64,000 nucleotides of DNA from Isoperla grammatica (taxonomy: Eukaryota > Arthropoda > Insecta > Plecoptera > Perlodidae). This document shows positions 14,601 through 62,100 of the stretch, in pieces. Positions within the stretch are counted from its first letter, which is position 1. Each line of letters starts with the position of its first letter. The stretch lies in NCBI GenBank assembly GCA_945910005.1, contig OX246749.1, positions 33,816,084-33,880,083 on the forward strand, in the 5' to 3' direction. The position numbers were made by a program, and so were the translations under genes. Below the pieces are notes generated by a model, which was not told the origin of the DNA, searched no databases, and saw only the letters and a program-made list of their open reading frames with translations.

Positions 14601-17600
14601 AAACTTTATTTTCCTTTCTGAAATGTCATGTTGATCAACAGGAAATCAAAATAGATGTGAAGCATAATCTAATTTACAATTATTATAGTTGTTTTACTTT
14701 TACAAATTACATAGTCAAGGTAAAATAGATGTGTTTAATTGTTTGTAATTAATAATTATACGTTGAAATTTAAAATTCTTACAAACATATCGTTGTAACA
14801 CGTAACAGTGACTATTATCGGGGAATCACCGGTTCTATACCGGTAACCGGTAATCATGACTAAACGTTTACGAAATAACATTTCGTCTGACGAAGTACGA
14901 GTATTTCTCAGGGCCCATGAAACTGTATTTCGGGCAACCGATAACCTTCCTCCACCTGTATTTCAGAAACTCAACATGACCCCCGGACTACCCCCCTTCG
15001 ACTGGTGGCGCCTCCCGCCCGACGAAGTCCTCCTTAACGCCCCCGAAACAGTATTTCACCCGATGAAGCGTTTCTAGGAGCCCTCGAAACAGTCTTAACC
15101 TCCTGCCCTGTGTTTCAGCGAGTCAACATGACCCCCGGACTACCCCCCTTCGACTGGTGGCGTCTCCCGCCCGACAAAGTCCTCCTCAAGGCCCCCGAAA
15201 CAGTATTTCACCCGACGAAGTGTTTCTAAGAGCCCTCGAAACAGTCTTAACCCCCTACTCTGTGTTTCAGCGAGTCAACATGACCCCCGGGCTACCCCCC
15301 TTCGACCGTGGCGTCTCCCGCCCGACGAAGTCCTCCTCAAGACCCCCGAAACCATATTTCACCCGACGAAGTGTTTCTAACAGCCCTCGAAACAGTCTTA
15401 ACCCCTTGCCCTTTGTTTCAGCGAGTCAACATGACCCCCGGGCTACCCCCCTTCGACTGGTGGCGCCTCCCGCCCGACGAAGTCCTCCTTAACGCCCCCG
15501 AAACAGTATTTCACCCGACGAAGTGTTTCTAAGAGCCCTCGAAACAGTCTTAACCCCCTGCAATGTGTTTCAGCGAGTCAACATGACCCCCGGACTACCC
15601 CCCTTCGACTGGTGGCGTCTCCCGCCTGACGAAGTCCTCCTCAAGGCCCCCGAAACAGTATTTCACCCGACGAAGTGTTTCTAAGAGCCCTCGAAACAGT
15701 CTTACCCCCTGCAATGTGTTTCAGCGAGTCAACATGACCCCCGGACTACCCCCCTTCGACTGGTGGCGCCTCCCGCCCGACGAAGTCCTCCTCAACGCCC
15801 CCGAAACAGTATTTCACCCGACGAAGCGTTTCTAAGAGCCCTCGAAACAGTCTTAACCCCCTGCCCTGTGTTTCAGCGAGTCAACATGACCCCCGGGCTA
15901 CCCCCCTTCGACTGGTGGCGTCTCCCGCCCGATGAAGTCCTCCTGAAGGCCTACGTGTTCAACATCACCAACGGAGAAGCCTTCATGAACGGGACAGACG
16001 AGAAGCTAAATGTAGAAGAAGTCGGACCCTTCGTCTTCCTGTGAGTAGCTCATCGCAATCTATAGTGGACCCACGGTAGCTATTCCTAGCTACAGTTAAC
16101 CCAAGTTAAGGACGTGACCAAAAGCCAGCTCTAGCGATGCTTAGTCCAGGAGCCCGATTCTCTAAATCTGTGGTAAATTTCTCACCGGTTTCTGTCGTTA
16201 CGGAAGGCGAATGGATGGGGTCACAGCCTTCTCATAACGACCAAAACCGGTGATCACCTTATCGTTGACCATAGAGAATCAAGGCTCAGGTCCAGATGTG
16301 ACGCTATCAACAACCAACGAACGGAGGGTACACAAGACACATTATTGATGACGTCAAATCTGGACCCAGAACTGTAGACTGGCGTTCGGACACCACCTTA
16401 GTGTTCTCGTGATGACTTTACATATTTTCAAGGTGCAATCTTATCTATAGTCTCAAGCTAACAATTCGCATACTGACGTCACATTCTTATGTATAGTTGG
16501 TTCACGTTAACTTTCCCTTTGCTGACGCTACATTTTAATAAATCCTTATCAACAGATGCCTTACTATACTCACGCTGTTCTATAACCAGTAATCGTATTT
16601 GGCGCATATTTAGAGCGGAATAAAAGCAAATGTACCAATGATATCCGCAAAGAATCTGGTGAAATTATTCAAGTCAGCAAACGACCTGTTCTCAAAAAAA
16701 AAAAAAAAAAAAACACGTACAAATCCATTCTAATAAAATTACCAGCAGCGCTCCCACCCCAACCACCATTGTTCTACAATCATGGAGCCGTTTTCCTCAT
16801 GATATTTAGCTCTTGATAATGCATGATAATGCATCCTACAGCAGGTATATTATTATTTGAGCCAGAACACACTAGGTTTACGAAGCTTGAGGCCGCTAAC
16901 ACTCCCGTGTATTGTTCTTGCACAGAGAGAGGCTGGTTCACACCAACATCTCCTTCAACGAGAACGGTACTATGACGTATGTGGCTCACAGAACCGCCAT
17001 CTTTAGGCCAGAACTGACGCACATCAGTCTAAACGCTACAATAGTCACCCCGAACCTCGCCGTGCTGGTAAGTTATACAACGGTAATAGTATGAGGAACC
17101 TACATGACTGGTCAAAGTTACACCGTCCTTTCGGATGGGACGTAAAGCCGATGGTCCCCTTGGTACTTTTCGACAGGAGTAGGCTACGTGCCGGTACCAG
17201 GCTTCCCCTCATCCTTTCCTCATTATCATTCATCCAGTATCACTCATCAGGCTAAAGAGGACATTGTGCCCTACACTGGCCTTAATTACAATAAAGTAAA
17301 GTACAACAGTTGTATTAAATAAACATGCACATCTATCAATACACAATATCAAAGCAGTATATATTTTCAAGTTTGAATTCTGTCAACAGAATCTCTTTCA
17401 TTGTACCTTCTTTGCCAGAAAAATGGCAGCATTTGATTTGCAAAACTTCTCATAGGGCGGATCTAACTCATGGCAGTACCCTGTGTTGAAACACAAGAAA
17501 CCTTCTCCAGCGACTATATTCATTATTGTTCGAATTATAGGCACCGTGTGTTAGTACATACAGCGCTATATGTGGCCAAATTTAGCAACAAACTGCTGAA

Positions 17601-19083: not shown

Positions 19084-19120
<37 letters not shown>

Positions 19121-20291
19121 CACCAGAAAGCGGCGCACTAAGGGTCAAATGCATAGTTGTTTCTCTTGTGCTCCTCAACTCAGCCTTTCCTCAGAGTCGC
19201 CCAACGACCAATCACAGAGCAGCATTGCCATGCAGACTGCTCTGTGATTGGTGGTTAAGCGAGACTGAGGAAAGGCTGAGTTAAGGAGCACGTGAGGAAC
19301 GACTATGCATTTGCCCCTAAGTGGCATTCCGGTTTACTTTTTGACAAAATTTTAAAGCATTTTTAGCAACAGAAATCGGGGATTGCGTAGACTAGGTGGA
19401 CATTCATCTTTAAATATATTTTCCTCGTCAAACAGTCTTGGATACATTATTTTAAAATGTTAAACGTAAAAAAAAAAAAAAAAAAAATTGGCGCAAATCA
19501 CCAAGATGTTGACGCGCCGTTAAACATTCAACAATTCATTCATTCATTCAAAAAATGTAAGTAAAAATGAACTCTATGATTGTCTCTCTGCCCTCCTCAC
19601 AGATCTACGAGGATTTCAGCGACGAGGTGACGGTCCACATAGGCAAGGAAGTGGCGCCCAGCAAGTTCTTTACGATGACGCGATACCACGGCAGCGACAG
19701 GTTCAACTATTGGCCGCAAGAGTCGTGCGACTCGCTAGACGGAGCCACCGAGGGAGTCACCTACCCACAATCCATCACGCGCAACGACAGCCTAGCCTAC
19801 TTCCGTAAGACCATCTGCAGGACTACGCCGGTAGAATACGCGCGTAAGTACTACGATAGTAGTAGTGGCTCGTTGGTCCAGTGGGTTAGCATCCCTGATT
19901 CAAATGCAGAAGTTCCCGGGTTCAAATCCCGGGTCAGGCAGAAGTTTTTTAACTTCAATTAAGGATTCAGTTCCATTACTTCTTGGCTTAGGAATAACTA
20001 ATAAGTAAATGGTCACTTTGGAGCCGTCCTAGCAACGAAGCACTCAATAAATTCAAAGTTGTTCTGAATCGGCCTTGTTGATTCTGGCATCTGTCCGCAG
20101 GTGTTCGCACTGTCCAATCACTGATTCATATGTTTCGTATTTGAATCGATCTTTGATTGGTTATCGCTCACTCGTCGACGGTGTTCGGAGCCTACAGGGT
20201 TGGTTAAGTCGCTTTAAATTAAAGTTCCCTTCACTGAAAATCAGTTTCGTTACTGAGTGGGTAGACTCTAAATGTGAATTTATTTATTTAC

Positions 20292-20338
<47 letters not shown>

Positions 20339-22851
20339 TACGGTAGAGACAATAACAACGACAGCCTCGCCTACTTCCGTAAGACCATCTGCAGGACTAT
20401 GGCGGTAGAATACGCGTGTAAGTAACACGACATTACATTTCTGGATTAGGATCATTTTAAAATAATACGTGAAATTCTCGTCGTTTCGTAAAAATACGCA
20501 CCCTACCTATTAACGAATGCTATGAATTTTCCTTCAAGGAATTTTCTACGTAAAAATATTATTTATTTCTTGCGAAAATGTCAACTGCACATTTTTTTAA
20601 AACTCTCGTTGAGACCAAATCATTAGTTTTTCTCCGCTTGACCAAACAAATCATTGTTGAATTTTCTTGTTTGATGCCGGAAAATGTATAGCAAGTTGAC
20701 TGTTGTGTCTACAATTTTGAAATAACCGCTACAAGAACCATTGATATGTTAACTAGTAATTATTTCACATTTGTCGTACACCTTAAATATGAATCAAGTA
20801 ACGGTTATATCTAGTTAAGAGCGAAAGGTAGTCTCTACGTCAAAAACCACAGAAAAGTATCATTATTTAATTATATCTCAAGATTGCAACAAGAAATCGA
20901 AAATCTAATTCAACAGCGCACTGTGTTTTGGTAAGCCCTACAGACTGAATGAAATATAACCATTAGCGTAGTTATTTTGATTATTAATTCGACAATAAGT
21001 AATAAAATTAATTATATATAAAACACATAGGCCTACTGATTACAATGTAAGACACAAAGAGCATACAGTATGTAGGGCCACAGTGCGCTATTGATTGAGA
21101 TTTTCGATTTCGAAGCCCATTCTTGTGATATAATTAATAAATTAAAATTTTGGGTGCGGCTTTTGACGTAGAGGTATCCTTCCCTGTTAAATGTCGGTGT
21201 GTAGTGGTCACGTCAACGTGTGTGTGACATAAGCCTTGCGGGTTACACCTCGTTTACGTTACCCTCATCGTTACGATCGTAGGTTCTGGGCGCTTGACGT
21301 TCGTAACTCTACCCGCGTTCATACACAGTCATCACGGATCCACGGAATACTGAACACAATTACAAAAATACAAATGGCGGGACGATGGAGCTTGGTGTAT
21401 TATTGAGGTTATCTTTTACGTTGTTGTTTATTGGCGTAGAAACAGGTTTGTATGGATATTTCTTTAGATCAAGTTTAGACGGCAACTAGTATACTAACTG
21501 CCGTAAGTGTACTCTGGTAGACCTACCGACTGATTTACTAACTGTGCAGCGTTCACACTTGGAAAATGACCGTCGGTTGGTCGGTAATGTAGTCTTACGA
21601 TCGTAAGATGAGATATAACGTAAACGGGGGGTAAGAGCGTATTTTCCCGTCGGTCACTACTACAGTATATACGTTGTAAGTCCGCGTTATCCAACATGAG
21701 GAAGGAGCCGTCAATCCGGATTATGTAAACACCCTCATATAATTATGTTATTCAACACGCCGACCCGACCCGATACATAACCGGGGACCTGTCCACCGGG
21801 TTAAGGACCAACAACAACCGAACACTGGTTTAAACCGGTTTTATGCGTCTCAATTTATAATTTTGAAGAAAGTTTGAAGATTTCATGTTACACTTACGAC
21901 GAAGCAATTAAATAATTTAGTATAAATATTGTCGGAAAACATTTTCGGTCGTACAAAGATATTATTTGAAGGTAGCACAAAGGCACCCGAAGGCGAAATA
22001 ACAGCAATCATTGAATATTATTTAAAACAAATGGAAATTCATGTAGTATGTTGTCCACGATTAGAGTTTAATTTACAAATTTACTATTATTTTTATTATT
22101 TTTACTATTTATTTTTTATTATTTTTATTTAATTTGTATTTACAAATTTTAGTGTAGTAACTTCCAGAAAATATATCGGTGGTTCAAATATTGCTCAATT
22201 TCGCGTTTTTAGCTACTGTATTTTGTGTAAGGGTGGCGGGGGGCGCGGACTCTTTACGTTTTCAATTTTCAATTCAATTTCAATTCAATTTAAAGGGGGA
22301 TGGGGGGAAGTCACACTTTTAGTGACTAGGGTGGAGGGGGTCTAGTTCGGTCCATCATTTAGAGACACTCCCTCAACTTTACGGGTATCTTTACACAAAC
22401 CATTGATATTTGGGCTTAACGTCTTATATTTTTGCAACTCGGCTAATCAAGACAATGAGTGGGTAATAATGAAGATGAAATTGGGGACTCTTTGAAGGAA
22501 AGGGGCAAGTAGGAGGGCGCGTGAGGAAAGGAGAAAGGGGAGGAAAGGGGATTGGGGTGTGGACTGCACTTCGTCTGACTTCTCCTCGACCAGTCCGGCT
22601 TGGGTGGCCCTACCAGAAGCATACGCTTCCGCCGGCATAGCTCTCGGGATCAACAAAGTACACAAACCTGCCCACCGCGATAAGGTAGCAGTCCCTGGGT
22701 TGGATCTTTACACAAACGATCCCAGTCAAGATTGTGACATGAAAACACCTTCCTAACTTTCATTTCAAGGTGCTCCTATAATATTAGCCACACGCGCTTT
22801 GAGTGTCGTGTGTAATGTAGCTTGTAACACACCTAATGAGACAGATAATGA

Positions 22852-22917
<66 letters not shown>

Positions 22918-25900
22918 GCGGTCCGACAACTTTCGATTCCGTAGACATATATTTAACATTTTTCGGGTACCGTTAGATAACAACAACACGTTTTGTCACA
23001 ATTCCATTCGAATATTTCTTGCGTCGGGAATTTCGAATTATATATTCGTTGCTCAGAGGTTGAGAGAAAAGCACCCATTGCATTAAATCACGATGTTTCA
23101 TAATTACATCTTGAGAACGCTAGAAGATATCGAAAAAGTGATTCACACCTAAGATTGCTTTTTGTATTGTCAGCTAAACAACGAATTTAAAAGCTTTCAG
23201 ATATTGTAATTGTAACGATTGTTATATCTGTAATTCATGAACTATTCATAGGTTGCACGTACGTCACATCTTTGCGCGTGGCGGCCACATTTGTGATCAA
23301 ACTTTGACGTTGCCATGGAGAAACAATTGAAGGATGTTGTGGTAGAACAGAGAAATCCTTAGTTCTTTAAAATGCTGCCTGTTTTTTTAAATAAAATTGG
23401 TCTGCATGGTAATTTCTTATGTCTTTATTACCAATGTTTACTTTTATATTCTAAATTAGGCTTATTTATTAAATTTGAATTATATATGCCAATGATCTAG
23501 GATTGGTCCTCATCAATTGTGTCGCAACCATGGCCGCTGTGACGTCACGTGGGAACTATGAATTAGTTATTTAATTAATAAAGAACAGAAATAAAAATCG
23601 TAACCATTTCAATATTTTGAAAAGTTCATCCTTTAGCTGATTCAAAACCAAACCTCGGGAAAGAATCACCTTTTGTTACCCATTGCCATCAAACGCAGCT
23701 TTAATAGTAAGACTGACTACCCATTACATTGTACACGGGTGTTTCGCAGGGGCGGCTCGCCCATAAGGGCACACGGGCATGTGTCCCCCCCCCCCCCTCC
23801 CGCCAACCGCGGTATGTTTACATAAAATCGAAAAGTTTGTAATTGTAATGTGCACATTCAAATAAAGGCGCGGTGCGCTGATTTATCCAGGCAGACAGCG
23901 GTACCCGAAGTCTCCGACAGAGCTCGTTACGGTTACGTTTTAGCTACCGTTATCGCTGGCCGCTGCGTCTTTGGGTTTATCGCGTCTTGCATTTTGTGGC
24001 TGGTGACTCGGTGAGGCCATGCCGATAACACTCATACCGCGCATGCGCAGTTACGTTTTTCCGCTGATAAGTGAGTGGAGACGGCAGATTTTACATGACG
24101 AATGAGCATGTTTGTCCAGAGCCCCAGTACGGAGCGGAGCGGGTCAGTTGTGTGCAGACAGGTGGCTGTCTTTGTTCTATAGTGTATAGTGCGTGTGCGT
24201 GTTGTGATGTGTCACTGTGTGATGTGTCGCTTTTGACTTTGTAGTAATAGTCAAACAAACTGAACGAGGTGAGGCACATAAAACATAAACCTTTGAATTA
24301 TGAATAGAGACTGGTAGCAAAGACATTAGGCCGACCAATGCCTGACTTGTGTATAACTAAGGTGTGCCAAATTAAAAATAAACTTCTTAACGTCACTTCT
24401 TAGCACTAGTATACAGACATTACATTATCAGGTAAGTTTGCATGTGCTGTTATTTATTATCTTCTAAATGAAGACTATAACTAGTTTTTATAAATGTTGC
24501 CTGATTTGTGCCCTACCCATTTCAAACCCCACGAGCCGCCACTGATGTTTCGTAAGCATGATACTAGTTCTGTTGGGGTCAGTATTGACCACTCAAAAGA
24601 GACTAGATGCATTCTGGTGGCAAGAAAATGAACTGTTATCAGGAGGAGTTTAATCTTTCTATCGTACAATGTTAAATCACCTCCTTGCCCTGTTGTTTCA
24701 GACGATGTCTTTAGATGTGGTATGAACGCCTTCCGCTTCGAGCTGCCGGTCGATCTGTTCCACCGCCACCCCAACCCCGAGGAAGACTGCTACAAGGGTA
24801 GCGGGCCGAAACCACTGCCTTCTGGTGCCGTGGACGTGTCGCCCTGCTACTTCAGTGAGTATATAGAAGGCAGTGAGTCCTAGTAACACCCTAGCACAGT
24901 ATCTGTTGCACCCACCGCCACCCTAACCCCGAGGAGGACTGCTACAAGGGTAGTGGGCCGAAACCACTGCCTTCTGGTGCCGTGGACGTGTCGCCCTGCT
25001 ACTTCAGTGAGTATATAGAAGGCAGTGAGTCCTAGTAACACCCTAGCACAGTATCTGTTGCACCCACCGCCACCCTAACCCCGAGGAGGACTGCTACAAG
25101 GGTAGTGGGCCGAAACCACTGCCTTCTGGTGCCGTGGACGTGTCGCCCTGCTACTTCAGTGAGTATATATAGAAGGCAGTGACTCCTAGATACGGCCGTA
25201 CAGAAACCTTCTTTATCGACACCGTTAAGGGTTAGTTCGTGGGATTCTCGTTGTATGAGTCTAGCAATACACATTAGAAATGAGATTCATTTTTAGTTTT
25301 ATATAGAGGACTTAAAACTAATATAGATAGCGCTACTAAGCAACCTCCTTTCAGCGCCATTGATGAATAATAACAATAAAACAACAATGAAAACTGACAG
25401 CCAAACCATTCTTTTAAGAAGTTTATTTTTTTGCCACCAGAATGCGTCTAGTGTATTTTGAGTGCTCTATAGTTTCGGCTTTATAATCACAATAATAACT
25501 GGTTTTGTGTGGCTCCTTGGCTTCTGTGTTCATTCCTGATCCCAATGCAGAATATCCAGGGTTCGATTTCGGGTTCTTTCTTGATGATGGGGTTGTAATT
25601 TGACTTCTTACATATATTATATATGTAGGGCAATGACGTATATTATGTAAACGGTAACTTTGGAGCCGTCATAGCAACAAGGCACAAATGGCTTAATGTC
25701 CACCAATGAAAATCAGTTGATGTATCTGAATTGGTATAGACAATAATTTAATAACAGTTTATGGCTGTTTGGTTTTAGGGCCGATCTTACAATCTCATAA
25801 TAGGAAAGTTATTTGTAGCTATCCGGAGGATTTCAAGAGTTTTGATTGGTCGTTGCCATGGAGACAACAAGCTATTCGATGAATACGTAGTCATTGGGAC

Positions 25901-28900
25901 ATTGTAAGACCATAGACTTATAATAGTAACTTCGTTACTGGACTTGAATCAGCTAAAAAATCAATGTACCAATTAAATAGCCACGGAAGAAGGCGGTGGG
26001 CGGCCATTTTAGCCATTAATTTTCGGATTTTGACATTGTTCACATTGTTGTTGTGACTGTTGATGTGTAATTGCTTAGCGATGGGGGCTTAAATGTCCGA
26101 GAATGTCAAAAACCGGAAATGAGAATCGCAGACGCGTATTCCAACCATGTTGCACATCCAGGTAAAACTGGACCTTATAGTATTAAAATGTTGTTTCTAA
26201 TACTTGTTTCAGACTTCCCTATCGCTGCCACAATGCCGCACTTCTTGGGCGCCGAGGAGTCTCTACTCAACAGCATAGTTGGACCAAGGCCCACCAGAGA
26301 GGAGCACCAGTCGTACGTCATCGTCGAGCCGGTAAGAGAAGCACGACACGCTTACCGACACTGTTCGTAGTTGTACTGTTGTTAGTGTTATTAGTGAATA
26401 ACAGGTGGAAGCACCAGTCGTACGTGATCGTCGAGCCGGTAAGAGAAGCACGGCGCTTTACCGGCACTCTTTTAGTAGTATTGTTGTTAGTGTTATTAGT
26501 GAATAACAGGTGGCAGCACCAGTCGTACGTGATCGTCGAGCCGGTAAGAGAAGCACGACGCGCTTTACCGACACTGCTCGTAGTAGTACTGTTGTTAGTG
26601 TTATTTGTGAGTAACAGGTGGCAGCACCAGTCGTACGTGATCGTCGAGCTGGTAAGAGAACCACGACGCGCTTTACCGACACTCCTCGTAGTAGTACTGT
26701 TGTTAGTGTTATTAGTGAATAACAGGTGGCAGCACCAACCGTACGTTGTCGTCGAGCTGGTAAGAGAAGCACGACGCGCTTTACCGACACTGCTCCTAGT
26801 AGTACTGTTGTTAGTGTTATTAGTGAATAACAGGTGGTAGCACCAGTCGTAATTGATCGTCGAGCCGGTAAGAGAAGCACGACGCGCTTTACCGACACTC
26901 CTCGTAGTAGTACTGTTGTTAGTGTTATTAGTGAATAACAGGTGGCAGCACCAGTCGTACGTGATCGTCGAGCCGGTAAGAGAAGCACGACGCGCTTTAC
27001 CGACACTCCTCGTAGTAGTACTGTTGTTAGTGTTATTAGTGAATAACAGGTGGCAGCACCAGTCGTACGTGATCGTCGAGCCGGTAAGAGAAGCACGACG
27101 CGCTTTACCGACACTCCTCGTAGTAGTACTGTTGTTAGTGTTATTAGTGAATAACAGGTGGCAGCACCAACCGTACGTTGTCGTGAAACAGAAACGTGCG
27201 CAAATTGAGGTTATGTTTACATTTTTTTTTTTACCACGCTCGTTCTCTCGTTCTTGCCTAGTTTGGTTGAATTTGTGAAATGTCTAATCCCAAGAGGAAT
27301 TTTTGGACAGGTATGGAAGTATTATTTATGTGGCCTCCTTTGTTGTTCCAACTTTTCTTTAAAACGCAGTACGTTAAATCTTGATTTAAGTGGCGCTGTA
27401 TACCAGGAACTAATTAATTATTTGAGAACGTTTCCAGATCGGTGGCATATTGTAAACGATCGACGAGTTTGGTTCGACTCCAGTCAAAACTTTTTCAAAC
27501 CTGCATGTAAACGTAGTAAGGGCCTATTTTGTTGCTAACTCGTGGCTTGTCCATGATTTCAATTGATCTATCATTGTAGCCCTGCTGGCTTGCAAGAAGA
27601 TGTTGAAATAGTTCAATAGTAGGCCTTGCAAGAAGTCTGTAACGATGTTTGCAAGCAAAGATATTGAAATAGTACAAAAACAAGGTCCGACCTAAATCGC
27701 CTGGCGGGGGCTCGTCGAACTCCCACCGAACCTCCGCCAGGGAATCGACGGACCTTGGTACAATAGTAGACCTTGCAAGAAGTCTGTAACGATGTTTGAT
27801 GCAAGCTCTTTGCAAAAAGTTGATTCCAACCCCCTTCTCTTGCAGACAACGGGCGTCCCGATGGAGAGCCGTGCTCGCAGTCAATCCAACCTGGTGGTCC
27901 GCCCGTTGAAGGGCTTTGGAGACCTCTCCAAGTTCTCTGACCTCATTCTGCCCATGTTCTGGCTGGAATACGTGAGTTGGTCGAGCACTGAGCTCTTTGG
28001 TGCCGCCTTCGGTCGGTTTGTCTTTGCCAAGTGCTTTGCATTATTACTTTTCAACATTTTGTATGTTCTTTGATTTGTTATTTTCAATGCTTTTGCAAAA
28101 CATATTATGAAGGGCTTTGACACCTTATCTTTGGCGTACATTAGCAGGTGGAGCGATGGTTCACTGTTGTTATTTTACTGCCAATCCTTAAAAGTTCAAA
28201 TTACTCATCATTAGCATTTTTTGCAAACTTGCTTATACTGTTTCTCTTTCACATTTCCCTTCATTCTATTTGTATTTTTCAATATAAACTTTGTCCGTGT
28301 CAAAGCTGAGAACGCCGCAGGGCATTTTGTTCACTGCATTTATAATAAGTTGTTTGTACACCCCGAGTGCGACCGCAGATTCTTTGAATCTGTTGGGTCA
28401 GAACTGTCAAAAAGTAATCAAATGTAATCTTGTATTTGTTGTGTGGACGCCTATTATTTGCCTAAATGTTGGGTTTCCAAGAAATGTGCGCATGGTTGAA
28501 CTTCTGTTATGGCTTCCGGTAATGAATTCGAGGATTTCGTCTCATGTATGTGCTAGCCAGGTAGTGGGGGTGAGCATCATTTGTGAAATGCCAAAGATCG
28601 ACAGATTTTCTTGTTCTCAACTAAGCCACGGGCCCACTGTATCTTTGTGACATAAACTGAACGATTTCCGCCGTATCTAATGCCCCCGTGTATGTTCTAT
28701 GTTCTCAGCACCAGGTAGGCCTACCCTGGTACATATCCTACATGATGTACTTCTCTGTGGTTGTCGTACCGGCCGCTCAGACAGCTGTGAGTGTAGCGCT
28801 GCTGGCGCTCGGCTCCGCGCTCATTCTAGTGGCCGTCACGAGAACCTACGTGTGGCTTAAACACAGCAAGGCAATGCTGCTCGTCTACAGCTCGCTAGAC

Positions 28901-28924: not shown

Positions 28925-28929
28925 TCGAG

Positions 28930-30600: not shown

Positions 30601-30604
30601 AATG

Positions 30605-32370: not shown

Positions 32371-32390
32371 ATTAATAATAATAATAAACA

Positions 32391-32448
<58 letters not shown>

Positions 32449-32455
32449 ATTATCG
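32371..32455. repeat. (ATT)n microsatellite
   Basis: Alternating TAA then ATT runs, with an imperfect inverted junction near 32390. Confidence 0.95.
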
Positions 32456-35905: not shown

Positions 35906-35954
35906 TAGTCAACTTTGACAGTGCAGTATATAATTTGTTAATTTATAATTAATC

Positions 35955-36540
35955 ATTTCCATACCGCCGCCGCTCCAAGTTCTTTGCAACGCTATTCCAA
36001 CATCTTTGACTTTAAAGGACATAAAACAAAATGGAACACTTGATTTCCATACCGTCGCCGCTACAAGTTCTTTGCAACGCTATCCCAACATCTTTGACGA
36101 ACATCAAATAAAATGCAACACTTGAGTTTCAAACCGCCACCACTCCAAGTTCTTTGCAACGCTGTCTCAATATCTTTGACTTTGATGAACATCAAATAAA
36201 ATGGAACACTTGAGTTTCAAACCGCCGCCACTCCAAGTTCTTTGCAACGCTGTTCCAATATCTTTGACTTTGATGAACATCAAATAAAATGCAACACTTG
36301 AGTTTCAAACCGCCGCCACTCCAAGTTCTTTGCAACGCTGTCTCAATATCTTTGACTTTGATGAACATCAAATAAAATGGAACACTTGAGTTTCAAACCG
36401 CCACCACTCCAAGTTCTTTGCAACGCTATTCCAACATCTTTGACAGACATAAAACAAAATGGAACACATGATTTCCAGTCCGCCGCCGTTCTAAGTTCTT
36501 TGCAATGTTTTGCCAATATCTTTGATTGTCATCAAACAAA
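35955..36540. repeat. 88-bp tandem array (7 copies)
   Basis: AAGTTCTTTGCAAC occurs at 35977, 36065, 36147, 36235, 36323, 36411 and, with changes, 36493. Spacing is 88 bp, or 82 bp where six bases are missing. The unit also has CAATATCTTTGACTTTGATG. It is related to the array at 40760-41279. Confidence 0.93.
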
Positions 36541-40759: not shown

Positions 40760-41279
40760 CTTTTTCAACCTCTTTGATCAGACTCATAAGGACTTTCTAA
40801 TGTCTTTGACTGTGGAACTTACACCACACACAGGCAGTCCTTGCAAGACACAGAAAGAAACTTACCCAATAAGTTGATTCAAGCTCTTTGATGGAACTCA
40901 TATCGCCTTCCAATATCTTTGCACTAAAATGTTCTGTGTCAAGCTCTTTGACTAACTCATAGGTACTTTCTAATATCTTTGCTTCCAAGAACCAACCATT
41001 ACGATACGCACTTAAATGTTCTGTATCAAACTCTTTGACTATAACTCATACGTACTTTCTAACGTCTTTGCTTCCATGAACCAACCATTACGATACGCAC
41101 TTAAATGTTCTGTACCAAACTCTTTGACTATAACTCATACGTACTTTCTAACGTCTTTGCTTCCATGAACCAACCATTACGATACGCACTAAAATGTTCT
41201 GTACCAAACTCTTTGACTATAACTCATACGTACTTTCTAACGTCTTTGCTTCCATGAACCAACCAATAAGATACAAGTG
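40760..41279. repeat. 89-bp tandem array running into the choline kinase exon
   Basis: CTGTACCAAACTCTTTGACT and TACTTTCTAACGTCTTTGCT recur every 89 bp (41012, 41101, 41190 for the TTAAATGTTC motif). Looser copies occur on both sides. The motif continues, with open frame, into the coding exon at 41280-41450. It is related to the 88-bp array at 35955-36540. Confidence 0.9.
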
Positions 41280-41846
41280 ATGGCAAACTACCCACACAAA
41301 AAAAACTACAAAAAGGAATACTTCAAGCTCTTTGGCGGAACTCATATGGCATTTCCAATGTCCTTGCTTCCAGAAAACAAAAACGCGTACTTCAATGTCT
41401 TTGACGCAGCCCATATGAATAACACTTCCAATCTCTTTGCTTACAGTACCACCAAGAAAGAAGTACCAACCTACACACGAACATTGTCGGACGACGCAGG
41501 GCTGGCAAACTACCAAGAAAAAACGCCCAAACGGGAATACTTCAAAGTATTCGATGAAACGACAAAAAAGTTGGTGTTCAACGAACTCTTCAAGGAGAAC
41601 AATGTGTTGTTGCCGCCCGAGAACGGTCGCGTGAGCGAGGGGTTGGTCGCGGCGGGAGAGGGGGCTGACGGAGGGGAGGGCGGCAAGATGGTGCTGGTGG
41701 AGGGGGGGAAGGTGTGGAACTCGAACCCGCTGTTCGTCGTCGGGACGGGCGAGAGTTTCGACGCCGAGAACGAAGCCGAGGAGACGTCACAGACCGACGC
41801 CGTCGAGGCCGCGGAGGACGTTACCAACATGACGGAGGTGCCCGAG
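41280..41846 (+). CDS. CHK: choline kinase exon 1 (N-terminal extension)
   Basis: An open frame from ATG 41280 to the donor CCCGAG/GTGAGT at 41847, ending in phase 0 as exon 2 requires. The first part repeats the pattern [50 protein letters not shown], clearly derived from the adjacent 89-bp array. The second part is Gly/Glu/Ala-rich ([19 protein letters not shown]). A plausible acceptor (CTCTTTGCTTACAG ending 41446) means the true exon may begin at 41447. Membership in the kinase gene rests on phase, position and strand. Confidence 0.65.
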
Positions 41847-44800
41847 GTGAGTGTGAGGGGGGTAGGTGAGGGGGGTAGGGGAGGGGGGTAGGGGAGGGTG
41901 AGAGGGGAGGGCGAGGAGACGTCACAGACCGACGCCGTCGAGGCCGCGGAGGACGTTACCAACATGACGGAGGTGCCCGAGGTGAGTGTGAGGGGGGAGG
42001 AGGGGAGTAGGGGAGGGGGAAGGATGTTACCAACATGACGGAGGTGCCCGAGGTGAGTGTGAGGGGGGAGGGGGGGGAGGAGGGGGCAGGGAAGGGGGAG
42101 GAGGGGGGAAGGGGAGGGGGAGGATTGTACCACCATGACGGAGGTGCCCGAGGTGAGTGTGAGGGGGGGAGGGGGGTAGGGAGGGGAGGAGAAAGAGGGG
42201 AGGGGGGAGGATGTTATTAACATGACGGAGGTGCCGGAGGTGAATGTGAATGACAGGGGGGGGATGAGGGGAGGAGAAAGAGGGGAGGGAGGAGAGTTGT
42301 ACCAACATGACGTAGGTGCCCGAAGTGAATGTCATTACAGGTGGGGGGGGGGGTGAGGGGAGGAGTAAGAGGGGAGGGGGGAGAGTTGTACCAACATGAC
42401 GGTGGTGCCCGAGGTGAGTTTTCTTGTCCAATCAAGGAGGAGGGTTAGTTTGCTATAGTTGGTATCATTGTACTATATATGTTCAGCACGAACCTAGTGA
42501 GCGTAAGACAAACTCTCTACGCACTAGCACACTCTATCTTTCATTTAGCTAGTTATACCTCATAGACTCATCATAGTCTAAGGTTGTAATTCATAGTCGG
42601 CCCCTACACCCCATAGTCGGCCCCTACACCTAGGGGCACCCATTGTTTCCAATGTCATTATAAAGACATTAATCTATCCGTCTAAATGTCTGTCTACCTT
42701 CTCTATCTCTCTCTCTACCGATAGAGGCAGCTCAGCGGTAAGACGCGAGACTCTAATTCGGGAGGTCGCCGGTTCGATTCCGGCCACCGGCAGTCCTGAC
42801 TGAAGGTTTTTTCCGAGGTTTTTCCTAAGTCGTAATTAGGGATGGGATAGTGTACACGTGTAAACGTGTACACGCTCTAATGCGTGTACACGTTTAGTGT
42901 TTCTCTGGAAACAATAAACGCGCCGTGTGTATTACTATACTGTGTGCGACCGGCCACGGAGGGCTTGGCGCCGACGAGTGGTTTCATGCGATGTGCGACC
43001 GTCCTCACTCCTCAGTTGTCACTTGTCACAAGTGATCCGAGGTCAGAACCATGAAACACGCTGGATTACGTCTTGAAACTGTTTGCGGGAACAACCCTTT
43101 AAAACATAATTTTTCGGTTTAGACAGAACATGATTTTTTTCGAAGGCGGGACCCCACGGACGTGTACACGTGTACACGGCTTTGCCAGCAGGAGTGTACA
43201 CGTTTAGTGAAGTACACGCTTTTGCCCATCCCTAGTCGTAATGAATGCTGAGATTGAGTCCTACTATATCAGCCCTCGGACAATCCTTCCCAACTATCCT
43301 TCAAACACTCTAATAACTTAGTTCATCACCTGAAGAGGGGCACATCAGGTAAAGCTGGTGTGTATACTATAACGGGTATTCGAAAAATTATTACGAAAAA
43401 TTATTATTCTATCTATCTGTATCTGTGTTGGCAGCTGGACGAGATACGAGAGAAGGCTCACCGACTGTGTCGGGAATATCTCAGAGGATCCTGGAGGAAG
43501 ATACAGACCCACGAGATGACGGTGTGCAAGATAAGGTAGGCGACAACGCAAGACTTCATAGATAACTTTCATAGCTAACTTTACTATGTTGCTACATTTC
43601 CTCGTCAATGGCAACAATGCAACACTTCATAGATAACTTTCAGAGCTGACTTTACTATGTTGCCACATTTCCTCTTCAATGACGACAACGCAAGCCTTCA
43701 TAGATAACTTTCAGAGCAGACTTTACTATGTTGCTACATTTCCTCGTCAATGGCGACAATGCAACACTTCATAGATAACTTTCAGAGCTGACTTTACTAT
43801 GTTGCTACATTTCCTCGTCAATGGTGACAACGCAAGACTTCATAGATAACTTTCAGAGCAGACTTTACTATGTTGCTACATTTCCTCGTCAATGGCGACA
43901 ATGCAAAACTTCATAGATAACTTTTATAGCTGACTTTACTATGTTGCTACATTTCCTCGTCAATGGCGACAGTGCAAGACTTCATAGATAACTTTCAGAG
44001 CTGACTTTACTATGTTGCTGTATTACCTCGTCAATGGCGACAACGCAAGACTTCATAGATAACTTTCAGAGCTGTCTTTACTATGTTGCCATATTTCCTC
44101 GTCAATGGCGTCAATGCAAGACTTCATAGATAACTTTCAGAGCTGTCTTTACTATGTTGCCATATTACCTCGTCAATGGCGACAACGCAAGACTTCATAG
44201 ATAACTTTCAGAGCTGACTTTCCTATGTTGCCATATTTCCTCGTCAATGGCGACAATGCAAGACTTCATAGATAACTTTTAGAGCTGTCTTTACTATGTT
44301 GCTACATTTCCTCGTCAATGGCAACAATGCAACACTTCATAGATAACTTTTAGAGCTGACTTTACTATTTTGCTACATTTCAAGAGGAAGGACTACTAGC
44401 CAATATTAAAACCCGCGAAATTAATGTATTTTCGTCATATCTCAATAACGCCACACAATATCGAAACAGTGACACCTACGCATATTTTGGATTCGTGAGA
44501 GCTCAATACCAAATGAAAAAGATTTCGTAGATTGTAGTAATTATAGTTGTAATTTCTAATTAACTTGTAAATTAGTTAAATTAGAAATAATAATTATAAT
44601 GACTGCAAAGTAATAAATCTTTTTCATTTGGTATTGAGCTCTCACGAATCCAAAATATGCGTAGGTGTCACTGTTTCGATATTGTGTGGCGTTATTGAGA
44701 TATGACGAAAATACGTTAATTTCGCGGGTTTTAATATTGGCTAGTAGTCCTTCCTCTTAATGGCGACAATGCTCGTGTTCAAGTGAACGCAAAGTGTGTA

Positions 44801-46101: not shown

Positions 46102-46133
<32 letters not shown>

Positions 46134-52100: not shown

Positions 52101-55100
52101 ATAAATTTCTTATTAGGAGATTGTAAGACCGGCCCTAAGCGAAGACTGCCTTTAACGATGTATGAAAGCTAGCCACGAATCTGTTCATGTCCTTTGAAAC
52201 AGCGTGCATGGAAGAGGCGGTAAAAAAAGAAAGCCTTAACAAAACATAGTTTCATGCCGACTTCAGATTTCTTAAGGGTAAAGGGGACCTAGTTGGATAA
52301 AAACTGTTTTCAATGATATCTTGACACTGCTGCTGAAAAAAAGTGATTCTTATCCGATATTTTTGTTCTAAATCAGCGAAATTAAAAAACTTTCAAACAT
52401 TGTATCGTAATTGGCGTAACACTTTTGGTCAGCATGCGAATAAAGTGGGACATCTATGTATTGTCTTAGGAATAAGTAAACGGTGACTTTGGAGCCGTCC
52501 TAGCAACGAAGCACTCAATAAATTCAAAGTTGTTCTGAATCGGCCTTGTTGATTCTGACATTTGTCCGCAGGTGCTCGCACTGTCCAATCACTGATTCAT
52601 ATGTTTCGTATTTGAAATATCGATCTTTGATTGGTTATCGCTCACTCGTCGATGGTGTTCGGAGCCTACAGGGTTGGTTTAGTCGCTTTAAATTAAAGTC
52701 CCTCACTGGAAATCAGTCTTGTTACTGAGTGGGTAGACTCTAAATGTGAATTTATTTATACAAGCAGATCCGTAGACAGATCCATGATCTAACTACGTAT
52801 ATAACACGCGTATACGTTTGAGAGACCTACTTAGTGCAGACTTAAGTATGTTAATTGGTATGGTACGTAGGTACTCAACGGAATTATCATATTTAGTGAA
52901 ATCAAGGTTTGACATTGACGTGGCTGCCTAAATAGGTCGCCTACATTGCAGGATGTACTTTCAGTTATGCTCCACGTGATATATAACGACAATAATAGTT
53001 TCGTATGAATCTCTGCTATAGGGAGTATTCACGTGACGTCACATCGGCCATATTGGAGGCCACCTATAGTCCTATTTCAAGTTACATTTAGCTGTCAATA
53101 GAAGTCGAATAATATTGTTTACGGGGAAATATGACAAGTTTGAACACGTATATCCCCCCATAAAGTGTACGGAAATGCTTATTGTATGCTTTTGTAAACG
53201 ATTAAAAGAGTAATCGAGACAAAAGAGTTTGTTTATGTTGATTTTAAATAATAATAGGAAACCAAAGTTAGAGAACAGTTGAATTTGCATCAAACGCGCC
53301 AGCTGAAACATAGTAACAATGAACTACCAATCAGTCAATCACATTCCATTGTGGCCACCATGCGCAATACGTGAATCCATCCTATAGTACTATTTCAAGT
53401 TACTTTTAGCTGTCAATAGAAAACAAATATATTGTTACGGGGAAATACCAGAATTTAAACACGTATATCCCCCGGTAAATGATTATGTGTGCAGCCATTG
53501 TAAACAACTAAAAGAGTGGCCAAAATAAGAGAGTTTATTTAAGTTGCTTTCCAGTAATAATAGTAAATCAAAGTTGGAGAACAGTTGCACTTCAACCTAA
53601 CGCCAGCTGAAATATATTAATGGTCGGTTTACAGACTTATTCAAGGTTTAAGATTTAATATTTTATTTACCTAACTGTTTCACTTAGGATCGCTATATCA
53701 TTGGCCGGAGTTATAAAACGTCGCCTCTCATTAGCTGGGCTAAGAATTGTATGTATAAGAGCTAACGTTGCTATGGTTTCCTTATAACTCGGGAAAGTTG
53801 TAAACGCAATAATGCTTGTTGTTACGTCATCAAAGGAGAAGACAGCGCGGAGCACCGCTCTCTATTCATAGGTTGCACGTACGTCATATCTTTGCGCGTG
53901 GCGGCCACATTTGTGAACAAACTTTGACGTTGCCATGGAGAAACAATTGAAGGCCGATATGACAGAACACATAAATTCTTCGTTCTTTAAAATACAGTCT
54001 GTTTTTTAAATAAAATTGGTATGTGAGGTAATGTTTTATTTTTGTATTACGTTTGTTTACCTTTCAAATTCTAAATTAGGCTTATTTATTAAATTTGAAT
54101 AGTATTTGCCCATTCTCTACGATTGGTCCTCCTCAATTGTGTCGCAATCATGGCCGCTGTGACGTCACGTGGGAACTATGAATAGTATCGCGTTGTGACG
54201 TCATCAAAGAAGAAGACGCATAGATAGGAGTACCTATCTATATAGTTTTGCGTTGTGACGTCATCAAAGGAGAAGACAGCGCGGAGCACCTATTATAAAG
54301 TTTCGCGAACTTTCTAAGCTGTGCGCATTGATTTTAAACAGTTCGTCCTCGGCGCTTCTCTCGTGAAACTATCCCGTACATCGCGCGGGCAGGCACAGTA
54401 TGGGGACATAGGACGGTGTGCACGTGGTGCCCGCAACGAGGGCTATCGTGCATCTCTTACGTCATTACTTTATTCATCTCCCGTGGCCTCCTCCAATAAA
54501 TATTGTCCCCCTTACTACATTCTTAGGTCTTCTTCATACTTGCCGGCTCTCTTTGCAACCCCCCTAGCAAGCTACGTAAATCCCCTGGTGGGGGCTCGTC
54601 AAACTTTCTGAGGTTTACCGAACCTCCGCCAGTGGATTGGTCACGATCGCAGAGCTTAGAGACGCTTCCTAGCGGGAAAACTTGTCCCTAGAACAAAGGA
54701 GTACTGATCGCAGAGCTAAGAGACGCTTCCTAGCGGGAAAACTTGTCCCTAGAGCCAAGGAGTACTGATCGCAGAGCTTAGATACGCTTCCTAGCGGGAA
54801 AACGTGTCCCTAGAGCCAAGGAGTACTGATCGCAGAGCTTAGAGACGCTTCCTAGCGGAAAAACTTGTCCCTAGAGCCAAGGAGTACTGATCGCAGAGCT
54901 TAGATACGCTTCCTAGCGGGAAAACGTGTCCCTAGAGCCAAGGAGTACTGATCGCAGAGCTGAGATACGCTTCCTAGCGGGAAAACTTGTCCCTAGAGCC
55001 AAGGAGTACTGATCGCAGAGCTTAGATACGCTTCCTAGCGGAAAAACTTGTCCCTAGAGCCAAGGAGTACTGATCGCAGAGCTGAGATATGCTTCCTAGC

Positions 55101-57974
55101 GGGAAAACTTGTCCCTAGAGCCAAGGAGTACTGATCACAGAGCTTAGATACGCTTCCTAGCGGGAAAACGTGTCCCTAGAGCCAAGGAGTACTGATCGCA
55201 GAGCTTAGAGACGCTTCCTAGCGGGAAAACTTGTCCCTAGAGCCAAGGAGTACTGATCGCAGAGCTTAGATACGCTTCCTAGCGGGAAAACTTGTCCCTA
55301 GAGCCAAGGAGTACTAATCGCAGAGCTAGGATGCGCTTCCTAGCGGGAAAACTTGTCCCAAGAGCCAAGGAGTACTGATCGCAGAGCTAGGATGCGCTTC
55401 CTAGCGGGAAAACTTGTCCCTAGAGCCAAGGAGTACTGATCGCAGAGCTAGGATGCGCTTCCTAGCGGGAAAACTTGTCCCTAGAGCCAAGGAGTACTGA
55501 TCGCAGAGCTAGGATGCGCTTCCTAGCGGGAAAACTTGTCCCTAGAGCCAAGGAGTACTGATCGCAGAGCTAGGATGCGCTTCCTAGCGGGAAAACTTGT
55601 CCCAAGAGCCAAGGAGTACTGATCGCAGAGCTAGGATGCGCTTCCTAGCGGGAAAACTTGTCCCTAGAGCCAAGGAGTACTGATCGCAGAGCTAGGATGC
55701 GCTTCCTAGCGGGAAAACTTGTCCCTAGAGCCAAGGAGTACTGATCGCAGAGCTAGGATGCGCTTCCTAGCGGGAGAACTTGTCCCTAGAGCCAAGGAGT
55801 ACTGATCGCAGAGCTTACATACGCTTCCTAGCGGGAAAACTTGTCCCTAGAGCCAAGGAGTACTGATCGCAGAGCTGAGATACGCTTCCTAGCGGGAGAA
55901 CTTGTCCCTAGAGCCAAGGAGTACTGATCGCAGAGCTTACATACGCTTCCTAGCGGGAAAACTTGTCCCTAGAGCCAAGGAGTACTGATCGCAGAGCTGA
56001 GATACGCTTCCTAAAGGGAAAACTTGTCCCTAGAGCCAAGGAGTACTGATCGCAGAGCATAGAGACGCTTCCTAGCGGGAAAACTTGTCCCTAGAGCCAA
56101 GGAGTACTGATCGCAGAGCTTAGATACGCTTCCTAGCGGTAGAACTTGTCCCTAGAGCCAAGGAGTACTGATCGCAGAGCTTACATACGCTTCCTAGCGG
56201 GAAAACTTGTCCCTAGAGCCAAGGAGTACTGATCGCAGAGCTGAGATACGCTTCCTAAAGGGAAAACTTGTCCCTAGAGCCAAGGAGTACTGATCGCAGA
56301 GCATAGAGACGCTTCCTAGCGGGAAAACTTGTCCCTAGAGCCAAGGAGTACTGATCGCAGAGCTTAGACACGCTTCCAAGCGGGGAAACTTGTCCCTAGA
56401 GCAAACATTACTGATCGCATAGCTTAGATGCGCTTTCTAGCGGGAAAACTTGTCCCTAGAGCCAAGGAGTACTGATCGCAGAGCTTAGAGACGCTTCCTA
56501 GCGGGAGAACTTGTCCCTAGAGCCAAGAAGTACTGATCGCATAGCTTAGATGCGCTTCCTAGCGGGAAAACCTGTCCCTAGAGCCAAGGAGTACTGATCG
56601 CAGAGCTTAGAGACGCTTCCTAGCGGGAGAACTTGTCCCTAGAGCCAGGGAGTACTGATCGCAGAGCTTAGATGCGCTTCCTAGCGGGAAAACCTGTCCC
56701 TAGAGCCAAGGAGTACTGATCGCAGAGCTTAGATGCGCTTCCTAGCGGGAAAACCTGTCCCTAGAGCCAAGGAGTACTGACCGCAGAGCTTAGATACGCT
56801 TCCTAGCGGGAAAACCTGTCCCTAGAGCCAAGGAGTACTGATCGCAGAGCTTAGATGCGCTTCCTAGCGGGAAAACCTGTCCCTAGAGCCAAGGAGTACT
56901 GATCGCATAGCTTAGATGCGCTTCCTAGCGGGAAAACCTGTCCCTAGAGCCAAGGAGTACTGATCGCAGAGCTTAGATACGCTTCCTAGCGGGAAAACTT
57001 GTCCCTAGAGCCAAGGAGTACTGATCGCCGAGCTAAATGCGCTTCCTAGCGGGAAAACCTGTCCCTAGAGCCAAGGAGTACTGATCGCCGAGCTAAATGC
57101 GCTTCCTAGCGGGAAACCTTGTCCCTAGAGTCAAGGAGTACTGACGTAGCGCGCTCGTCTACAGCTTTGTGCGGATTGGACGACATTGCACTTGTTTGTA
57201 AACAAAGACCACCACAAGAACTCTTTGTAGCCGCCATGTTAGACAGTGACGTCATGATATTCGTCTTTGAGATACCGAATTGATGATTTAACAATACAAC
57301 AACAATAAACAATAGGGAACCCGCAACTGTCGTCACATCAGGGCTACAACAATGGAACAAATGAATTGAACTGATGGACAAACAATCGGCTGTCAAAATA
57401 ATAAAATTGCAACCATAGAAATAAAAACAAGTGTAGCAATAGTAACTGCTCGCCATTTAAAACTTTTAATGATGGACAACGACTAAGTGAAAGTTTTGTA
57501 TGTGTGTTTGTTTGTTTTTTGTTTTGTTTTCCAAAATCAGAAGATATTATTTTTTGACAGCTTGTTGTTTGTCCATCTATTCAATTCAATTGTTTCATTG
57601 TTGTCTTTTGGTGTTGCTAGTAGCATATTAACAGCTGAACTCCTCATGATAGTAAATTTTCTTGCCACCAAATGGCATCTTCTATTGATATCCTGTCCCG
57701 AAAAAAGTCACAACAATCTGTTGTTGCATTCTCATTGTTGCCAGTATCACTGTGAAGCGAAACGAAGCTTGGCTACCGTGAAAGACAACACAGGAAATAT
57801 AACTTACTTGAGTACAGTGAGTTATATAAGAACGACAACGCTGCCGTAATCTCAACCTACTTTACATCGTCTGTTGATAACAACAACAAATATTTGAACG
57901 AGTCAAACATCAGAAGTCATAACCAACCTGACAGCACCAAAATAATAAAAATAATAATAATAACATTATAATAC

Positions 57975-58041
<67 letters not shown>

Positions 58042-58926: not shown

Positions 58927-58957
<31 letters not shown>

Positions 58958-59007
58958 ATAATAATAATAACAATAATAATAATAATAGTAAAAATAATAA
59001 TAGTGAT

Positions 59008-59060
<53 letters not shown>

Positions 59061-59067
59061 TAATAAT

Positions 59068-59113
<46 letters not shown>

Positions 59114-62100
59114 GTAATTAGTAATAATAATAATAATAATAATAATAATTTTATGTACAGGAGTCGAACACTGTTACCAAACAAGTCACAACAAACTTAT
59201 TATTATTATATCAGCAGGAAAATAATAAACAAACATAAACAATTAAAACGAAAACATAGTAGAACAGGTAAAACATTATATAAGACCTAGTAATTGGACT
59301 GTACACTGTTCCTTGTCCCATAAATTTGTTTTTATATGTGACAAGGAACAGTGTACAGTCCAATTACTAGGTCTTATATAAGCATAAACAAAATGAGTAC
59401 CAGCAGCTGCCAAGCTTAGCACATCATAATATTTATTAAAATTATATTTTCACTTTCGAATTTGACTGAAATCTATGCTAGGAAAAAATTTGGATTTTCT
59501 AGAGGTGATTGTAAAAAAAAAAAAAAATTAAAAATTAAAAATTAAAAAAAAAAATTTATTAATATTGTTATTGTTGTTATCCACAGTGGCGGACTGAGCA
59601 ACCTGCTGTACTACTGCGCGCTGCCCCCCACCCTGCCCCCCTGCAAGGGCGAGCCAGCGAGACTGCTGCTACGGCTCTACGGTCAGGTTCACGGCCAGCG
59701 AGCCCTACAGGGTCTCATTGCAGAGTCTGTCATCTTCACCATGTTGTCCGAGAGCCAGCGGGGACCGCGACTATACGGGGTGTTCCCGGGGGGGAGACTG
59801 GAGGAGTACATACCGGTGAGTAGGAGTACATACCGGTGAGTAGTCGTATTTAATCCACTCGGACGTTTCTTTTTTTTTTTTTTTTTTTTAGAATCATAAC
59901 AAATTTTTCTTTTTTTCTTTTTTTGGGGGGGGGGGGGTGGGACACATTTACCAAATTTCCGATCTGTTATAAAACCTAAATTTGAACTCTATTTTAGAAA
60001 GATTTCTTTCTAATTTGTTTTACGTAGGTTTTAAATTGTTGACCTGAGACAATTTTTAAAATCACCCAGTTAGTCACGGTCCTCTAAATCTTTAATGACA
60101 ACAATCAACAATGCACAATAATATTATTAGAAACTAATTTTCAAATGTTGTGTCAAGATTCATTGACAACATCTATCAACCTTGATTTTATATATTTTTC
60201 ACTGTTGTGCACTGTTGTCATTGAAGATCTAGATGGCCGTGATTAGCTCTATCCAAGGGTCCTAGATAAATTCTGAAAAAGGTCTGACAGCTAAAATGAC
60301 GTACACACACAGTATGGTTGTGACATAACGTGACACTGTTCGCAGGCCCGGCCGCTGGTGACGAGTGAAATGAGCGACCCAGCGCTCACGCTGTTGATAG
60401 CAGAGAAGATGGCGCAGATACATCAGATGAGCGTCCCAATAAACAAGGAGCCCAGGTGGCTGTGGGACACTATGGACAGGTGTGTATATACAAGGCTGTG
60501 CAATCAAATGTCGTACATAGACAATAGGCCACTCCACTAGCAACACCAAAAGACAACAATGAAACAAATGCATTGAATCGATGGACAAACAACAAGCTGT
60601 CAAAAAATAATTTCTTCTGATTTTGGAAAACAAAACAAAAAACAAACAAATACACATACAAAACTTTCACTTAGTCCCTGTCCATCATTAAAAGTTTTAA
60701 ACGGCGAGCAGTTACTATTGCTACACTTGTTTTTATTTCTATGGTTGCAATTTTATTATTTTGACAGCTGATTGTTTGTCCATCAGTTCAATTCATTTGT
60801 TCCATTGTTGTAGTCCGGATGTGACGTCAGTTGCGGGTTCCCTATAGACAGGCAGACTGGTAGCCATATTCGATATTAACTGAAACTCGGCAGTCACGAC
60901 AATACGTACCGGTAGATACTTATTTGCTGATTCTCTTACTTCGACGCCCGGCTCAAACAATGGAATGGAACACAGTTTGAAGGATTGTGAGAAAAGATTT
61001 AGTCTCGACTATTAACACTTCCAAATATTGCAGAATCATAACGGTTTTTCTTTTGGAAACCAATAACTTATTAATTCTTTCATTATCTTACAAAACAACA
61101 ACTGTACGGATTAAAATATTTGAAACGTTTTTTTTTAAATCCGGTGTTTAGTAACTGCAATGTTGATTAGTGACCGCTTCTTCAGTATTTTGCAGCGTTC
61201 TCGAGACACTACTAGAACGCATTGATTTTGCACGGTTTTAATGATGAGGCAAAGCCATTCCCATTAATATTACATCTTAAACGTTAAACAGTTGTGCGAT
61301 CTGACCGTGGACCACACAACCTAACCGAACGACTCACTAAAACGTTCTGATCTTTCCCCAGTTGGATGTCGGGCATAGAAGAGTTCATGACGCAGACGAC
61401 CACACGGGAACAGTTCAAGTTGATGATCAAACAGATCACGACGTACGACCTACAACAGGAGCTAGACTGGCTCAAGTAAGTGAGACTATTTGCTACATCT
61501 GTGACCTGTGTATTGATTTAAATAAAATAAATTACATTAAATTCACATTTAGAGTCTACCCACTCAGTAACGAAACTGATTTGCAGTGGGGGACTTTAAT
61601 TTAAAGCGACTAAACCAAACCTGTAGGCTCCGAACACCATCGGCGAGTGAGCGATAACCAATCAAAGATCGATATTTCAAATACGAAACATATTATGAAT
61701 GGGCGGACAATTGTCAGAATCAACAAGGCCAATTCAGAACAACTTTGAATTTATTGAGTGCTTCGTTGCTAGGACGGCTCCAAAGTCACCGTTTACTTAT
61801 TCCTAAGACAAGAAGTAGGCCTAACGGAACTGAATCCTTATTAGAAGTTATAATAAACTGCTGCCTGAACCATTGGAAGCAGGGATGCTAACCACTGGAC
61901 CAATAAGCCACCCTACTCAGTTCTTATATGAGATGTCAAATGGCTAGTTAATGCTTAGATTAGATTAGATTTAAGTTTAACACTTCAAGGCTGCAAATGG
62001 GCCGTAACTGCCCGGTGGCAACCTGTCCAAACCCCCCCCCCCCCCCCTTAGGTAGAGGCAGAGTCGATAAAGAAGTTTTCTTAGGGTGAACTTCTCTATC

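Follow-up and report, generated by a model that had tools for sequence, protein, structure and literature searches.

Minisatellite-like tandem duplications that lie across an exon-intron boundary, over either the donor or the acceptor, are described for amphioxus in the available portions of two papers, where they are called mirages (PMC3087553, PMC3902484). As far as these portions go, mirages occur in Adh3 and in the globin genes BflGb6 and BflGb9 (PMC3087553), with PGBD5 and troponin C as further cases (PMC3902484). Their units measure 10 to 160 bp, many copies carry splice signals, and those of BflGb6 are 81-100% identical; both normal splicing and length instability are reported (PMC3087553, PMC3902484). 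The 64,000-nucleotide window analyzed here (G000:C17:33816084-33880083, in the 874-Mb assembly of the insect Isoperla grammatica) carries arrays of this sort in a CD36-family receptor gene and in a choline/ethanolamine-kinase-like gene, and paralogs of the receptor carry more of them. These insect arrays are classed with the mirages, as a case from a new lineage. Specifically, they are probably mirage-type minisatellites that were born by local duplication over an exon edge and then grew while splicing was kept.

As in amphioxus, the repeated unit spans the boundary between exon and intron (at 6 of 26 junctions in the window and 18 of 99 outside it), and both types of boundary are hit (18/60 donors and 6/66 acceptors with the window included). 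The host is an insect instead of a cephalochordate, a difference that lies outside the structural definition of a mirage. In the insect, more junctions of one family are affected, a donor bias and the polarized birth of an array on an existing intron are seen, and a null model is available; normal splicing and length instability are reported for amphioxus, whereas the insect arrays are known from one assembly and their normal splicing is presumed.

The original paper on amphioxus Adh is said to be Canestro 2002, and Gao and Lynch (2009) reportedly described internal gene duplications that cross an intron-exon boundary and copy splice signals. The insect duplications likewise cross the boundary and copy splice signals; here, the introns predate the arrays. 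A further comparison is polyubiquitin, for which the accessible part of one paper describes tandem dual-specific splice sites in coding units that are spliced in varying number (PMC10809524). Both systems repeat splice motifs in tandem, but the extra copies are intronic in the insect and the units coding in polyubiquitin. Judged by titles and the openings of abstracts, with partial coverage of the literature, no insect case of junction-spanning arrays is apparent, and the portions available of PMC6304787 and PMC4039745 do not describe such an array.

Near-identical splice sites beside a single used site amount to a natural test of splice-site choice and exon definition. Mirages are known from several lancelet genes, and an insect with this many affected donors offers many cases. 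Junction arrays also represent a route by which introns lengthen from exon edges, and they matter for gene annotation because decoy pieces of exon can be mistaken for real exons.

Repeated splice junctions in two genes

Both genes of interest lie on the + strand of the window. In the CD36/scavenger-receptor-B-like receptor, exons e2-e9 were placed by Pfam PF01130 (on three exons), profile matches and splice sites; in the kinase-like gene, exons e1-e6 were placed, and its best matches in the PDB are choline/ethanolamine kinases. Every window exon that was translated is open in one frame. Copies of each junction were counted within 6 kb with a 30-mer across it (a 20-mer for a 20-bp repeat, a 28-mer for e5) at up to ~27% mismatch. 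Of 26 junctions tested from 14 located exons, the donor of kinase e6 being left out, six are duplicated and 20 are single-copy. An earlier note, made from the letters of this DNA, had listed copy numbers of 7, 2, 3, 8, 7 and 2, which the junction search reproduces exactly: seven for the e2 acceptor, two for the e5 donor, three for the e6 donor and eight for the e7 donor of the receptor, and seven for the e1 donor and two for the e3 donor of the kinase-like gene. The note had spoken of six affected exons among 15; the six duplicated junctions stand, and the located exons number 14, the note's first receptor exon not having been found. Its observation of junction-spanning arrays is thereby confirmed as real.

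In the receptor, a 152-bp array (14955..15951; Tandem Repeats Finder (TRF), junction count) lies over the acceptor of exon 2 (15877..16040; Pfam PF01130, splice sites), and the junction copy at 15877 adjoins the intact exon. Exon 5 (19603..19843; splice sites, profile match) has its donor at 19843/19844, and a second copy of its end together with the donor follows at 20356..20430, with 69/75 positions matching in the printed alignment; the distance between the two donor copies is 574 bp and takes in a run of ATTT as well as a dispersed repeat. The donor of exon 6 (24702..24854; Pfam/profile, splice sites) is covered by another 152-bp array (24760..25189; TRF, junction count), and that of exon 7 (26213..26331; splice sites, profile match) by a 108-bp array (26303..27178; TRF, junction count), whose units, by eye, also hold an acceptor-like AACAG/GT.

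In the kinase-like gene, a G-rich array with TRF periods of 71-135 bp (41777..42419; TRF, junction count) lies over the donor of exon 1 (41447..41846; splice sites). Exon 2 (43435..43535; splice sites, junction count) retains a single-copy donor, abutted by a 71-bp array of ~12 copies (43539..44381; TRF, splice sites) that begins at the fourth base of the intron, which bears out the seventh array of the earlier note. A perfect 20-bp tandem duplication (59802..59843; TRF, junction count) holds the donor of exon 3 (59587..59815; sequence, splice sites) and looks younger than any other event in the window.

Other repeats are present in the window. The dispersed repeat between the e5 donor copies, with the core GTCTACCCACTCAGTAAC, occurs there 11 times when up to 2 mismatches are allowed (13973, 20249 on the - strand, 35600 on the - strand, 38330, 61554 and six more). 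The largest array of the window, a 61-bp unit x41 with 94% matches (54645-57144), sits in the second intron, a long one, of the kinase-like gene. Just upstream of the acceptor of kinase exon 1 (CTTTGCTTACAG) lies an array of 89-bp units that contain CTTTGCTTCCA (40921-41446); by eye, it may be an old acceptor mirage, and an 88-bp array at 35963-36525 resembles it. A search of the window for transfer RNA genes found none.

Junction arrays across the CD36 family

A CD36 profile search of the genome gave 99 matches, which were grouped into 16 genes, and twenty 10-kb stretches were fetched from these matches, chosen before their repeats were inspected, one tandem exon having already been noticed by then. 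Splice edges were first set by automatic choice and five were then corrected (the donor of locus L037 and the acceptor of L038 are no longer straddled at 10 bp, and the donors of L041 and L038 and the acceptor of L044 were shifted); the remaining edges were not all rechecked by eye. Excluded before counting were 15 duplicate exon matches within arrays (L037, L041) and donors or acceptors scoring below 4. With corrected edges, extra junction copies within 6 kb were found outside the window at 13/47 donors and 5/52 acceptors, so that donors exceed acceptors both there (Fisher P 0.035) and with the window included (P 0.003). Tandem repeats that reach from the interior of an exon into the intron were found repeatedly among the fetched loci, and in eight further CD36 loci that had not been used, 2/16 edges are straddled (L025, L029), as judged by eye from coordinates. 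Arrays can be large: one donor in L042 has at least 85 extra copies, and the fetched stretch ends inside the array. One CD36 exon in L040 has its acceptor junction x23 (3554-6512), with 22 copies upstream of the exon.

The birth of one array can be polarized by comparing L034 and L037, two CD36 paralogs on contig C17 with long aligned blocks that are ~88-89% identical. Their exon at profile positions 335-376 has a single acceptor in L034, whereas in L037 it adjoins 154-bp units in tandem that supply 13 additional acceptor copies. A 27-nt stretch of the filler joining these units occurs 13 times in L037 and is absent from all other fetched loci. This contrast indicates that the array was most likely gained in L037 on a pre-existing intron, the loss of a whole array in L034 being the less simple alternative. 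Other arrays are common to these paralogs with differing copy numbers, an array at L036 5091 shares its unit with the L034 acceptor array, and a 129-bp array x3.0 in L033 faces a 130-bp array x5.0 in L036. In addition, intron positions near profile 83, 134, 203, 270, 335 and 376 recur among the 16 CD36 genes compared, which argues that the introns beside the arrays are old. As judged from these comparisons, arrays appear to lengthen introns, with no sign that they created them. Creation of an intron by tandem duplication of an AGGT-containing segment, with the new intron arising between the copies, was considered as a candidate and is not supported, since the introns predate the arrays.

Chance, targeting and tolerance

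Arrays are long because they have grown, so that the first duplicated segment is the thing to be placed at random. For this reason, each array was collapsed to one unit, with placement optionally weighted by the intronic rate at a given guanine-cytosine (GC) content; collapsed units capture 2.8% of intronic bases (6.6% at GC of at least 45%, 1.7% below), where intronic arrays are those away from located exons, some of which may sit at unlocated ones (first or last exons, other genes). Under this birth null with GC weighting, the window alone has 4 junction-spanning arrays against 0.98 expected (P 0.018; periods of at least 30, first-pass edges). Outside the window, with corrected edges, 13 arrays were observed against 2.72 expected without weighting (P 6e-6) and 3.96 with GC weighting (P 2.5e-4), or 11 against 3.55 (P 0.001, GC-weighted) when L035/L036, which have the same arrays through gene duplication, are removed. 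The excess there is carried by donors (9 against 1.82 expected, GC-weighted) and by arrays of at least four copies (11 against 1.23); with the window included, arrays below four copies also exceed expectation (6 against 2.12, P 0.02). The CD36 family thus shows junction-spanning arrays at ~3x the GC-matched birth expectation, with donors above acceptors, and GC-rich DNA accounts for part of the junction excess.

Several observations weigh against a special role of splice junctions. In the window, 25 arrays (period of at least 15, length of at least 40) make up 15.8% of the length, so that about 4/26 junctions would fall in arrays by coverage alone and six are not striking, and at least ten other sizeable arrays found by TRF lie away from located splice sites. 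Over the 254 kb studied, arrays make up 20.7%, whole-array rotation gives 22.8 straddled edges where 22 were observed (first-pass edges), and among present-day intronic 30-mers drawn at random 27% of 685 are duplicated, rising to 45% of 263 at GC of at least 45%; by plain coverage, junctions are not special. Even under the birth null, outside the window, acceptor-spanning arrays (4 against 2.14) are not significant after GC weighting, arrays below four copies (2 against 1.54) are not enriched, and loci outside contig C17 contribute just 2 arrays where 0.48 are expected (P 0.08). Every stretch fetched beyond the window belongs to a single gene family, with most of them clustering on C17, and inspection by eye of 96 P450 matches revealed no partial duplicates. 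Coincidence in a minisatellite-rich genome, in which some arrays must overlap splice sites, draws on the coverage figures and is nonetheless unlikely: rotation lets long arrays swallow entire exons, unlike the arrays seen, and was judged a less apt null than array birth; collapsed-birth counts exceed expectation 3- to 6-fold, also after GC weighting and with the window excluded; and junction arrays have longer units (median 129.5 vs 71 bp) and more copies (5.0 vs 3.3) than other arrays. The non-random link to exon borders claimed in the earlier note therefore holds under the birth null and not under plain coverage. A mutational hotspot, at which border features such as a GC step, chromatin, transcription or splicing start tandem duplications more often, would explain why the excess survives GC weighting and is strongest at donors, and arrays of at least 95% identity are likewise in excess outside the window (4 against 0.82, P 0.01, no GC weighting). 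Such targeting is nevertheless somewhat improbable as the main cause, given that arrays with few copies, which are most likely to be recent births, show no enrichment there and that better survival or growth where purifying selection holds one copy could give the same excess. Since the excess outside the window is confined to arrays of at least four copies, better retention or growth of arrays could account for it just as readily as targeting; the counts do not choose between the targeting and the tolerance that the earlier note had posed, and GC content explains part.

The repeated sites might also be kept for a use. Repeated donors and acceptors could aid splicing or, through retention of U1 particles for example, shield the intron, and their GT/AG cores do vary little: among the extra copies of 17 arrays, 3/34 core columns are variable, against 9.8 expected from the same dinucleotides elsewhere (P 0.001) and 9.3 for any dinucleotide (P 0.004), with corrected edges. 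The figures are 2/30 against 9.0 and 8.4, respectively, without L035/L036, and 3/32 against 8.3 (P 0.02) with first-pass edges; arrays lacking a clean unit layout were left out (L040, kinase e1, the 98-bp array of L041, periods below 30). However, whole splice-site columns are unremarkable, with a variability of 0.258 that is close to the exonic part (0.247; intronic, 0.324), the core test relies on two columns per array, and L037 has gained an array where its sister L034 has none, which argues against need. Low core variation may reflect selection on decoys, or merely the descent of copies from, or their turn-taking as, the working one; selection for decoys is quite unlikely as the explanation, and the useful decoys of the earlier note are left with a hint from the cores. 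Live intron creation through duplicated AGGT-containing segments, which that note had also proposed, could appeal to the donors within the units, to the additional acceptor-like motif of the exon 7 units and to a new potato intron produced by similar duplications, as described in the part available of PMC4974935. It is very improbable, given the recurrent intron positions and the L037 array on an existing intron. An assembly artefact or a single spreading mobile repeat could draw on the difficulty of assembling arrays, whose copy numbers may be off, but copies differ within junction arrays (unit identity 0.76-0.98 in 16 arrays), homologous arrays are present in a separate paralog, and among 61 array units of the fetched loci only 9 pairs are related. 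Six of these pairs are arrays shared with a recent duplicate of the gene, two represent one array split at region borders, and the last is a 90-bp unit in two arrays away from located edges. An artefact or a spreading repeat is accordingly an extremely remote explanation, and the earlier statement that this is not one mobile repeat holds within the fetched loci. The shared 90-bp unit (94%) occurs in arrays at L039 5387 and L043 4350, ~2 Mb apart on C17.

Proposed growth from exon edges, and other gene families

The preferred reading, mirage-type arrays born at exon edges, suggests the following course of events. A local tandem duplication would take in the first or last part of an exon together with its splice site, in units mostly of 20-174 bp and once joined by filler of a few tens of bases, and the array would then expand through more tandem duplication or unequal exchange. 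In the junction arrays that were printed and inspected, the exon runs on intact past the array, with the extra copies on the side of the intron, so that the junction closest to the intact exon can keep working. Under exon definition, the site beside the intact exon would pair with the site at the far end of that exon, and the remainder would be spliced away. Arrays are more frequent in GC-rich DNA, of which exons are a source; the excess would be due to tolerance and survival at exon edges, perhaps with some targeting, and purifying selection on one edge copy may keep the other copies recognizable. Decoy acceptors lie upstream of the used site and might compete with it more, which would fit the scarcity of acceptor arrays.

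A wider reading is that exon borders, donors foremost, host ongoing birth or expansion of arrays genome-wide, to a degree that GC content and repeat density do not account for, with decoy cores kept. This is possible but doubtful; if true, introns keep growing from exon edges, and many genes bear rows of decoy sites that splicing must ignore or use. Beyond the CD36 family, junction arrays are present in the kinase-like gene of the window, and among 139 kinase matches one donor-side partial duplicate was seen by eye: at C20:4009244, judged by coordinates only, the end of a protein-kinase exon (profile 103-140) is repeated ~49 bp past the exon. Each of nine sugar-transporter matches consists of one long exon, and they say nothing about junction arrays. 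Four sugar-transporter matches lie within 90 kb at G000:C8:44069913-44155040, each as one long exon, with the domain free of introns.

Genome-wide, there are 276 pairs of the donor motif CAGGTAAGT at a distance of 90-120 bp, compared with 139 when the motif is reversed as a control, and single sites number 5,036 against 6,268, which gives 5.5% vs 2.2% in pairs, in the direction expected. As one array on contig C5 supplies 65 of the listed pairs, this excess is not counted as proof. That array (G000:C5:58112771-58120495) has ~116-bp units with a perfect CAGGTAAGT one unit apart, and a second one (C1:71907422-71909113; 17 listed pairs) has ~99-bp units with a perfect CAGGTAAGT likewise one unit apart; both are possibly further junction arrays.

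The insect host is consistent with at least 150 Chitin_bind_4 and at least 122 7tm_6 matches in the assembly, the latter being the insect-specific odorant-receptor family. Two loci (G000:C16:4298237-4300390 and C16:5689767-5692049) each hold one open frame of ~900 codons that encodes several Chitin_bind_4 cuticle domains.

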